This document shows, one piece after another, positions 46,473-50,384 of a stretch of 64,000 nucleotides of DNA. The translations under genes and the position numbers were made by a program. Where the stretch lies: assembly GCF_000009765.2 (NCBI RefSeq), contig NC_003155.5, forward strand, positions 8,432,001 through 8,496,000. Reading direction: 5' to 3'. The notes beneath the pieces were generated by a model. That model searched no databases, was not told the DNA's origin, and saw only the letters and a list, made by a program, of their open reading frames with translations. The stretch comes from Streptomyces avermitilis MA-4680 = NBRC 14893 (GTDB lineage Bacteria > Actinomycetota > Actinomycetes > Streptomycetales > Streptomycetaceae). Numbering within the stretch: position 1 is the first letter of the stretch; every line of letters starts with the position of its first letter.

Positions 46473-46631
46473 TCAGGCGCTGCGCGACATCACCATGCCG
46501 AAAGTGATCAGACCCAGCACGACCCAGCCGAACCACAGCCAGCCGTTGCTGCCGAGCGCCACCGTGTAGGCCGTCACCACGACGAGCCCACCCATGGTGA
46601 GCACCCCCATGGTCTTCGTAGAACCGGGCAT
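46473..46631 (-). CDS. Small membrane protein, 52 aa
   Basis: ATG 46631 follows GGAGGG. The protein has a short polar N-terminus (MPGSTKTMG) and two hydrophobic segments (about 10-28 and 31-48). Its codon bias fits the genome, and the spacing to the upstream gene is 13 bp. The family is unknown. It lies downstream of the kinase/septum-formation gene, perhaps in the same transcript. Confidence 0.72.
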   Translation of the reverse strand: MPGSTKTMGVLTMGGLVVVTAYTVALGSNGWLWFGWVVLGLITFGMVMSRSA

Positions 46632-46644
46632 CGCAACACCCTCC

Positions 46645-47566
46645 TCATGGTTCGGTCCCCTCCATGGTGCCCCCGTTCTGCCGCTGGACGCTGCACACGA
46701 CGAGATGTGTGCCGGAGTGCCACGCTCCCTTTGCGGCCCACGAAGCCGCTTCGTAGACCCCCGGGTCGTACCCGTACTGGGCCGGCGGCACGTCCCGCGC
46801 GCAGGCGGCGTCCGATTGAGCGGCCGCCTTCTTAAGGGTGGTGCCGGCGCTGAGCCGGGTGAAGCCGAGCACTTGCTGATCGTGCGGTCCGGCACAGGAG
46901 ACCAGCTGGGCCCTGCGGAGGGAAGGGGCGTCCAGACAGTCCCGCTTCTGCATGTTCGCCGTGTCCACGAACCACATGCCGGGCGTGCGGTGACGGTCGA
47001 GCGGCCCGTACACCGCACCGTGCGCGCCCAGCACCAGACAGGCGGTGCGCCGCCCGGCCGCCTCGAATCCCGCCCGCGTCGGCACCACGGCGTAGCTGCG
47101 CACGTCGGCGAGCTTCTCCCGGATCTCCTGCGTGCGCTGCTCGCACGCGGCCGGACCGTGCTGCCGCGCCGCCTCGGCGGACGTCGCCGCGACGACCGCC
47201 ATGACCTGGCCGTCCGGCACCTTCTCGGCGCAGGTCGGGTCCACGGCCAGCTTCGGCGTGCCCTGGAAGGCGGCGCCGGGCCAGTCGGCGACGACGCAGT
47301 CGCCGTCCTTGAGCGGCGCGGCGAGGGCCACGGCCGCTCCGTAAGGCTTCGCGTCGCCGCCGCCGGGCGGCAGATGCGCCACCGCGTACCAGACACCGCC
47401 CAGCGCGAGGACGAGGCCGAGGGTGAAGGCGATGACGGACTGAAGGACACGAGGGCGCTTGCGACGCCGCCGACCGGAACCGAAACCAGCGGCACCGAAC
47501 GCCGCTCCGGCGGGCCGGCCGATGACATCCGAACCGTACGAGGAGGCACTGAGGCCTAGCCGTACG
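46645..47566 (-). pseudogene. Out-of-frame C-terminal part of the kinase: membrane span and Septum_form-like domain
   Basis: This frame is open from the kinase linker and reads SASSYGSDVIGRPAGAAF...RRRRKRPRVLQ, then a membrane span (SVIAFTLGLVLALGGVWYAV) and an extracellular domain with paired GDC...C and SCAGPHDQQVLGF...CARDVPP, resembling septum-formation domains. No ATG, GTG or TTG precedes the span; the first start, GTG 47382, would delete it. The kinase frame enters the same DNA in a different phase. A frame break around 47550-47570 therefore separates two halves of one receptor kinase. An alternative is a separate gene with a non-canonical start. Confidence 0.65.
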
Positions 47567-48910
47567 GGTCGCGGCCGGGCTCTGGCCGTACGGCGACGCG
47601 GTGGGGTCGTGGGCGTACGGGGTCGCGGCCGGGCTCTGGCCGTACGAGGGGGCGGTGGGGCTGCGGCCGTACGGCGAGGCGGTGGGGCCGGGTCCGGGTC
47701 GTGGCGCGCCCGGCTCCTGGCCGTACGAGGGGGTGGCGGGGTCGTGGGCGTACGGGGCGGCGTTCGGGTCCTGCCCGGACGGTCCGGCGGCCGGCCCCCG
47801 CACCGGCCCCGGCTCCGAGGGCGTGCCCCGCCCCGCCGTTCCCGCGGTCGCCCCCGGTGGCGGTGACCCCGGCGCGCTCCCCGCCCCGGACCCCGTGCCG
47901 CCCGGTCCGTACGCGCCCGACGTTCCGTTCCCGCCGGGACCGGCCCCCGGCCCGTGCCCCGGATACCCGGTCTCGGTGGTCCACCCGGCCTCCGCCCACG
48001 GCGGCTGCGACCCCAGGTCGAACTGGGTGCGCGGATGGGGCTGGGGCGTGACGATCGCCGACAGCGCGGCCTCCGTGTCCTCCGCCGTGATCCGCTGCCC
48101 GGGGTCCTTCGCGAGCATCGCGGCGAGCACCGGTTCCAGCGCCCCCGCCCGCACCGGCGGGCGCGGCTCCTCCAGCACCACGGCGGTGACCTCGGCGAGA
48201 TGCGTGTCCCGCTCGAAGGGCCCGCACCCCTCGACCCCGAAGTACAGCGTGCACCCCAGCGAGAACAGGTCGGCGGTCGCGGTCGGCGGCCCGCCGGTCG
48301 CCCGCTCCGGCGCCAGATAGCCGGGCGTGCCGACCAGCGCCGACGTGAGGGTGTACCGGGTCTCGCCCGCGTCCGGTTGCACGGAGATGCCGTAGTCGGT
48401 GAGCAGCACGCGCGCGTACGCCGCCCCCGTGCGGTCCGGCGCCAGCAGGATGTTCGCCGGCTTCACGTCCCGGTGCATGATGCCGCGCTCGTGCCCCGCG
48501 GTGAGCGCGTCGAGCACGGCGAGCCCGATGCGGGCGCACTCGGCGGGCGCCAGCGGGCCGCGCCGGCGCACGAGGTCCCGCAGGTCGAGCGCGCCCGCCA
48601 CGTACTCCATCACGATCCAGGGCAGGCCCTCGTGCTCCAGTACGTCGTGCACGGTCACCACATGCGGATGGCCGCGCAGCCCGGCGGCGTGCCGGGCCTC
48701 GGCCCGGGCACGTGCGACCCGGGCCGTGCGCTCCTGCCCGGCCTCCGCCGGACTGCGGAACACGATCTCCTTGAGCGCGACCTCGCAGGCCAGCCGCTGG
48801 TCATGGGCGAGCCAGACATGGCCCATGCCGCCGCTGCCGAGCCGGTTCAGCAGGAGGTACCGGCCGGCGATGACCCGGCCCACTCCCGACTGCGGTGATC
48901 CTGATGGCAT
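47567..48910 (-). CDS. Ser/Thr protein kinase with Pro/Tyr/Gly-rich linker, frame-broken at the end
   Basis: ATG 48910 (MPSGSPQSGVGRVIAGRYLL) follows GGGGAGA. The kinase domain covers about 15-275: GSGGMGHVW glycine loop, Lys47, HRDVKPANIL with Asp148, and DYG (172-174) in place of DFG. Residues 290-448 are a linker of repeated (A/S)PYG, PSYG and PYAHDP units. After about residue 448 the frame loses sense (RTARPQCLLVRFGCHRPAR) and continues open to 46832. The sensible membrane/extracellular half is in another frame. It is 13 bp downstream of the PASTA lipoprotein gene. Confidence 0.85.
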
Positions 48911-48923
48911 CGGGTCTCCCCGG

Positions 48924-50384
48924 CTAGGCCGTGGTGGTGGAGGTCGCTTCGCCGGCCACGGGACCGGAGGCGACCGGATCGGAGGCGACCGGATCCGACG
49001 TGACCGGCTGGGCGGTCGCCGGGGCACTCGTCACCGGAGCGGACGTCACCGGAGCGGACGTCACGGGCGCGCTGGTGACCGGCCGGCTCGTGGGCGGCGA
49101 ACTGCTCACGGCAGGCGGCGGGCTGCTCACGGCAGGCGGCGGCCTGGACGCGGACGCGCTGCTCGCCGGCGGCGGCTCGGAACTCTCGGAACTCCCGGAA
49201 CTCCTCGAGGCGCCAGGAGGGCCACCGCTCGTCGCGGACGAGGGCGGAGACGAAGCGGGCGGCGGGGACGAGGTCGTAGCGCCACCGGAGGACGGAGGCG
49301 GCTGGCCGCTCCCCCCGGGCGTCGTCGAGCCCGATGCCGGGGGAGCGCTCGTACCACCCGTGCGCCCCTCGCCGGTTTCGCCGGTGGTCCCGTCGCCGCT
49401 CCCCCTGCCCGTCTTGCCGGCCGTCCCCCGCTCCACGGACAGCGTCACGTACTCCCCGAACTCCAGCTCGGTGCCCGGCGCCGGGTCGGAGCCGGTGACC
49501 CGGGCGTCGTCGGGTGGCGGTCCCTTTTCGCCGTACGCCGCTGCGAGGCCCTTGTCCGCCAGTCGCTGACTCGCGTCGCCGAACCCCATACCGGCCACTT
49601 CGGGCACCTTGTGCCGCTCGTGGGTGTCGAACGGGGAGTCGTGTGCGCCGGTGGTGCCGGCCGGCCGGGTGATCCCCCGGTCCGGGTTGTCGACGTCGAC
49701 GAGCGCGAGTTGCTCGATGCGCCGCGGGGCGGGCTTGACGGCCACCAGAGAGGCACGGTCGTAGCCGTCCCACTTCTTGTTGCCGTTCTCGAACTTGACC
49801 GAAATCCTCGATGCGTCACCCGCGAAGGGCCGCAGCGGATTTCCGCAGGAACACTTCACCGCGGGAAGTCCCTGCTCATCCACCAATATCGCGATGCCCG
49901 CCTCGAGCAAGGAGTTGAAAGGGGCTGCCCTGCCCTTTTTGTAGTCGTGGTTCTGCACGAGAGTGTCGTGACGCAGCAGGACCGGTGTGAGCCTGTCGAG
50001 GTAGGCGGGAATCTCGTCCTGGGAAATCTTGAGCACCTGCGCCCAGACATGTGCCTTTCGGTCGTTCCTGGGATCGGTGAGGAATTTCTTGAGACGGTTG
50101 ACGTCGCAGATCGTCGGCTTCCGTGTGCCCCCGTACAGGCCTGGCGTGTTGCCGGCCTGTAGGCCGCTGTGCGGCTGTTGGCGACGGACCGTGGAGTCGT
50201 GGCCGAGGCCACTTTCCTCATCGAAGAAAGGTGCGAGTGAAGGAACTCGCGCGGCGACGGCTTTCACCGTCAACAGCTGCGGGCCTCTGTCGCACCCGCT
50301 CAGGACCAGAGCGCAGACCAGCAGAATGCCAAGCCTGCGGACCACCGATTTTCCTGCCCTTTGCATGGGCATGCAAAATGTCAT
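48924..50384 (-). CDS. DUF6777-type lipoprotein with PASTA domain and Ser/Thr/Pro-rich tail
   Basis: ATG 50384 follows GGGGGGAG. The 486-residue protein has a lipoprotein signal with lipobox LSGC (Cys31), a DUF6777 domain at about 40-245, one PASTA domain at about 262-326 (KVPEVAGMGFGDASQRLADKG), and a 155-residue Ser/Thr/Pro tail with repeated APVTS units. PASTA domains bind muropeptides or lipid II. The kinase gene follows after 13 bp, so this is probably the external sensing partner of that kinase. Confidence 0.85.
   Translation of the reverse strand: MTFCMPMQRAGKSVVRRLGILLVCALVLSGCDRGPQLLTVKAVAARVPSLAPFFDEESGLGHDSTVRRQQPHSGLQAGNTPGLYGGTRKPTICDVNRLKKFLTDPRNDRKAHVWAQVLKISQDEIPAYLDRLTPVLLRHDTLVQNHDYKKGRAAPFNSLLEAGIAILVDEQGLPAVKCSCGNPLRPFAGDASRISVKFENGNKKWDGYDRASLVAVKPAPRRIEQLALVDVDNPDRGITRPAGTTGAHDSPFDTHERHKVPEVAGMGFGDASQRLADKGLAAAYGEKGPPPDDARVTGSDPAPGTELEFGEYVTLSVERGTAGKTGRGSGDGTTGETGEGRTGGTSAPPASGSTTPGGSGQPPPSSGGATTSSPPPASSPPSSATSGGPPGASRSSGSSESSEPPPASSASASRPPPAVSSPPPAVSSSPPTSRPVTSAPVTSAPVTSAPVTSAPATAQPVTSDPVASDPVASGPVAGEATSTTTA
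48955..49100. repeat. 15-bp coding repeats for (PVTSA)n in the lipoprotein tail
   Basis: Units of about 15 bp encoding SAPVT occur four times in a row, followed by degenerate copies (QPVTSD, DPVASD, GPVAG). They are in frame, so number changes would lengthen or shorten the extracellular stalk without breaking the protein. Confidence 0.75.

Follow-up and report, generated by a model that had tools for sequence, protein, structure and literature searches.

Receptor-type Hanks kinases, such as the PknB/Stk1-like proteins and the Pka kinases of Streptomyces, have a kinase domain, a linker, a membrane segment and a further domain, an order shared by the intact relatives of the gene described here. 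PkaI, another Ser/Thr kinase of S. coelicolor, acts in spore-wall synthesis according to the accessible part of its description (PMC4416010); nothing shows a like role for the present kinase, and among the papers listed in literature searches no title concerns it. Frame breaks that are validated by homologues and occur as singletons are expected to be mostly sequencing errors, as the available portion of the GeneTack survey has it (Antonov et al. 2013; PMC3711429).

The window, which is the whole 64,000 bp stretch analysed (positions 8,432,001-8,496,000 of the 9.03-Mb contig in the 9.12-Mb, two-contig genome of Streptomyces avermitilis MA-4680), has a GC content of 67-79% per 2-kb bin and was found to carry on its minus strand a kinase gene that is split between two frames. 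With a probability of about 0.9, this is a single Streptomyces receptor-type kinase gene in which the frame was lost at the linker repeat by two base losses, neither programmed nor a switch, and arising from a recent mutation or a local error.

Two frames meeting in a linker repeat

The features of the locus, in window coordinates, are as follows.

46473-46619: frame of a small hydrophobic protein, downstream neighbour of the kinase gene
46645-47547, minus strand: membrane segment and Septum_form domain (PF13845), frame +1, ending at TGA 46647-46645; the C-termini of relatives match here
46832-47567, minus strand: kinase frame continued as a nonsense tail down to TAA 46834-46832
47539-47591, minus strand: interval with two 26-base spacings, that is two single-base losses against the 27-base register, for a net frame change of +1
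47559-47688, minus strand: 27-base tandem repeat array of 9-residue PYG/SYG/PYA units (TRF, 4.9 copies), its end coinciding with the frame break
47567-48910, minus strand: Ser/Thr protein kinase domain (Pfam Pkinase) and most of the PYG-repeat linker, frame 0, starting at ATG 48910
48924-50384, minus strand: gene of a DUF6777 and PASTA protein (Pfam), upstream neighbour of the kinase gene

The kinase frame matches Pfam Pkinase (E 3e-40, residues 20-278), and its start at ATG 48910 is supported by alignment from residue 1 in most relatives. GSGGMG, VALKE, HRDVKPAN, DYG and APE can all be read in its translation, and are taken by us to be the glycine loop, the VALK lysine, HRDxKxxN, DxG and APE of a catalytic domain. 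The linker that follows is rich in proline and glycine and closes in the 27-base tandem units, with sense kept down to ...ASPYGQSPAAT at about 47567. The original prediction placed the loss of sense at this point within the PYG repeat, with the C-terminal domain continuing in another frame, and both coordinates and frames were confirmed. It also had the kinase frame end at the break, where no stop codon is found; the frame runs on, and the product predicted from the record (692 aa) includes a nonsense tail of approximately 245 residues.

Shifted by +1 (mod 3) against the kinase frame, the C-terminal frame reads ASSYGSDVIGRPAG from about 47547, followed by a hydrophobic segment, called a membrane segment by eye, and the Septum_form domain (Pfam, E 1.5e-21, residues 108-285). 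As had been predicted, no usable start codon precedes the membrane segment: ATG, GTG and TTG are absent from this frame between 48663 and 47382, the latter position being the end of the hydrophobic segment. A sequence search of the PDB with the C-terminal part gave nothing credible (3 matches, best E 0.48). The best NCBIfam model, PknB_PASTA_kin, matched the kinase part only, at 206.6 bits against a cut-off of 450, and, unlike in the PASTA kinases PknB and Stk1, Septum_form was the only domain found in the C-terminal part, with no PASTA repeats. Judged by architecture, the intact gene would encode a receptor-type Ser/Thr kinase in which a Hanks-type kinase domain is joined through a low-complexity, fast-evolving linker to a single membrane segment and a Septum_form domain, the last being expected to lie beyond the membrane. 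The single polypeptide across the membrane segment (called by eye) that defines a receptor-type Hanks kinase is interrupted in this record, the frame being broken.

The DUF6777/PASTA gene stops 13 bases ahead of the kinase ATG and has a lipobox-like start, LSGC (by eye); DUF6777 was found in 37 of the 43 longer loci that hold both kinase and C-terminus. A PASTA lipoprotein adjoining a receptor kinase that lacks PASTA repeats could form a split sensor.

The GTACG cores of the array are spaced by 27, 54, 27, 27, 27, 26 and 26 bases. The rule is thus 27 (once 54), and, as the last two, consecutive spacings are 26, each of them is one base short of the repeat. Two bases in all, not one, are thus missing, and the frame changes by +1. 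The first loss is the ACCCG noted in the original prediction, where a sister unit has ACCCCG. It had further been stated that restoring the base would bring the kinase to a TAG; one added base does lead into the third frame, which stops at TAG 47558-47556, and for that reason it leaves the kinase and the membrane segment unjoined, two bases being missing against the repeat. The run of C at the break counts three or four, and at the same point the kinase frame reads AGG, a codon used 3.8 times per 1000. A classical hypervariable tract is longer than three or four C. The tetranucleotide CTAG occurs 10 times in the window, where base composition predicts 164 (GTAC has 286 copies), and its sole copy within the kinase gene lies at 47556, at the frame break.

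One gene in the relatives

In 71 of the 84 loci examined, a single uninterrupted frame without a stop spans kinase, linker and C-terminal domain. The nearest relatives by kinase are all intact, namely G244 (90% identical), G234 and G144 (both 89%) and G286 (88%), and in G244, with a C-terminus 72% identical, the joint reads SPSYGHDV where the window reads ASSYGSDV, placing the joint within one protein. With a single-frame gene in these 71 loci, the closest relative included, the comparison of orthologues shows one gene that is broken in the window, as the 'broken one-protein kinase' of the original prediction supposed.

The 71 intact rows comprise 69 genomes together with S. canus and sp. AC550_RSS872, two possible duplicates of species already present under G handles, and they include weak kinase matches (G195, 46%; G159, 64%). 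Of the 66 genomes matching the C-terminal part, those with the stronger matches were examined, the weaker ones being mostly paralogues; at least four loci belong to the scan of named genomes, and L009-L038 cover only part of the surroundings. Also left out of the 84 rows were L071 and L074 (taken as repeats of G144 and G177), shorter duplicates and the genome's own paralogue, L070. This paralogous kinase, outside the window at 5,637,968-5,640,139, is read in a single frame and has a C-terminal domain 38-39% identical to that of the window. Among 392 genus genomes the best DNA match was 88% in the kinase, closer species possibly falling outside this sample, and a search centred on G244, again over 392 genus genomes, turned up none nearer.

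From locus to locus, between 18 and 495 bases separate the kinase alignment from the C-terminal one. A tandem array of its own was detected in 17 of the 71 intact linkers (TRF score 50 or more), with differing units of 9 to 81 bases and periods that are mostly multiples of three; the GTACG array of the window was present in none of the 71.

Besides the window, the 13 non-intact rows are the following.

G153 (L032): syntenic locus with deletions inside the kinase and a broken frame in the linker, where TRF finds no tandem array
G124 (L056): syntenic locus with kinase and outer domain fused in different frames, the linker and the membrane portion being lost
G172 (L067): syntenic locus with a remnant of the outer domain; no kinase match
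G275 (L054): syntenic locus; no kinase match
G017 (two rows): syntenic locus (L182) reduced to a 61-residue remnant; a second contig has a kinase at its end
G285: frame break; neighbours not found
G240 and G109: second copies, the 1.2 kb upstream giving no kinase match
G139 (twice) and G362: ending at contig edges, and uninformative

None of the 13 shows the kinase and the C-terminal part as two intact neighbours, and the break of the window recurs in none of the other 83 loci. The decayed copies of G153, G124, G172, G275 and G017, each altered in a different way, sit between a CtaG-like gene and the genes of a small hydrophobic protein and a histidine kinase. With these five, and with 229 of 295 genus genomes lacking a match to the C-terminal part (E 1e-10), loss of the gene is tolerated and has occurred more than once.

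Recent mutation or local error

Frame loss at the end of the linker repeat, through two closely spaced single-base losses against the repeat, would then have had one of two origins: a very recent mutation, after which the kinase would carry a nonsense tail and lack its membrane anchor, or a consensus error confined to this spot in an intact gene. The odds of the two are nearly equal, and the sequence alone is unable to separate them.

A sequencing or assembly error in the GC-rich tandem repeat, the true gene being intact, has close to an even chance. It would account for one-base losses in two neighbouring units, one of them in a shortened C run, and for a break that the other 83 loci lack; singleton breaks validated by homologues are expected to be mostly errors, at least in the available portion of the survey (PMC3711429). 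The rare CTAG sits at the break as if the string were not normal coding sequence, a coincidence noticed post hoc.

Selection is also in keeping with an error. Pairwise dN/dS between the window and 12 orthologues was 0.12-0.24 in the kinase half and 0.32-0.47 in the C-terminal half; with the same set, the intact G244 and G286 gave 0.14-0.32 and 0.23-0.50. When only the five nearest relatives are considered, the C-terminal value is 0.32-0.39 for the window and 0.23-0.35 for G244 and G286 within the group, at identities of 68-74% and 78-84%, respectively. From these values the kinase half appears free of decay, and slight relaxation of the C-terminus is possible, a longer branch giving the same picture. 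Without clear relaxation, the break would be either very recent or an artefact.

What weighs against an error is the state of the assembly. In a protein-based frame test with queries from G234 (79 of 479 used, best match at least 60% identical), 79 genes or 24,220 codons in 464 kb were testable, and the window kinase alone was broken. The 78 other genes being unbroken, the assembly is not generally poor, though a local error could have escaped this test; by the rule of three, an absence of breaks in 78 genes leaves room for as many as about 300 in the whole genome. The reverse test, with 74 testable genes (of 318), gave one break in G234, this control genome's own (L140, about 1,497,800), in a long gene conserved with the present genome. 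A codon Viterbi scan for frame breaks (464 kb here and 400 kb of G234) returned mostly gene overlaps and noise, with 23 unexplained calls in the present genome (G000), that of the window included (47556 flagged), and 21 in G234. It was too noisy for a rate to be derived, and the protein-based test was relied upon instead.

One or more genuine recent indels, making the gene a young pseudogene or leaving a truncated, unanchored kinase, come somewhat short of an even chance. The clean frame test elsewhere in the assembly is on the side of this explanation, as are the decay of the same locus in five genomes, one of them (G153) also broken in the linker, the many genomes without a C-terminal match, and the frequent changes in linker length, seen both in the alignment distances and in the arrays of intact linkers. 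Against it, either half shows little or no other decay, and two losses at one spot with so little further damage are somewhat awkward for plain mutation. Relative to its intact orthologues the frame in this record is disrupted, as in a pseudogene. If the break is real, the strain would produce either a kinase without anchor and with an aberrant tail or no stable product at all, and would be a natural mutant in a kinase lost by several Streptomyces lineages.

A broader form of the same idea is very unlikely: the recurrent linker arrays would mark a fragile joint between kinase and sensor, at which lineages occasionally release a receptor kinase from its anchor, the window being a snapshot in which the soluble kinase is still active.

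The original prediction also raised slippage in the repeat as a switch between soluble and membrane-bound kinase. A tandem repeat and a short C run do lie at the break, yet the run is below the length of a classical hypervariable tract, the one-base variant runs into TAG and yields no membrane-bound form, and gain or loss of a 27-base unit, a multiple of three, keeps the frame. With the array shared by none of the 71 intact linkers, no second phase is seen, and the broken linker of G153 has no array by TRF; phase variation is very improbable. Still less credible is a programmed +1 ribosomal frameshift joining the two frames, which would have the required direction and the infrequent AGG at the break in its favour, but which is not conserved, 71 of the 84 loci needing no shift, and has at its site neither a stop codon nor, by eye, a known slip sequence. 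Two abutting proteins, the second with an unusual start as had also been proposed, are just as hard to credit: both frames are open across the joint, yet the C-terminal frame lacks a start codon there and the domains are fused in the relatives. Comparison of the loci lends no support to a switch, a programmed frameshift or a two-gene design.

For annotation, the reading preferred here, a single gene whose frame was lost by mutation or error, means that both frames belong in one receptor-kinase entry marked as frame-broken, and not in those of a soluble kinase and an orphan Septum_form protein.

Comparison with known frame-broken genes

The locus shares a repeat near the break with slipped-strand phase-variable genes, and differs from them in a unit that preserves the frame, in a short C run and in the single phase observed. 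Genes with programmed frameshifts have a conserved frame transition, whereas most loci of this kinase are read straight through. The locus also resembles the singleton frame-broken genes of the GeneTack survey, in which, as far as its available portion describes them, the break is likewise validated by fused homologues and not conserved there, the one difference being the repeat at the break site of the window (PMC3711429). The observation is an ordinary one, a known kind of kinase gene broken in a single genome sequence, most likely by recent mutation or by sequencing error.
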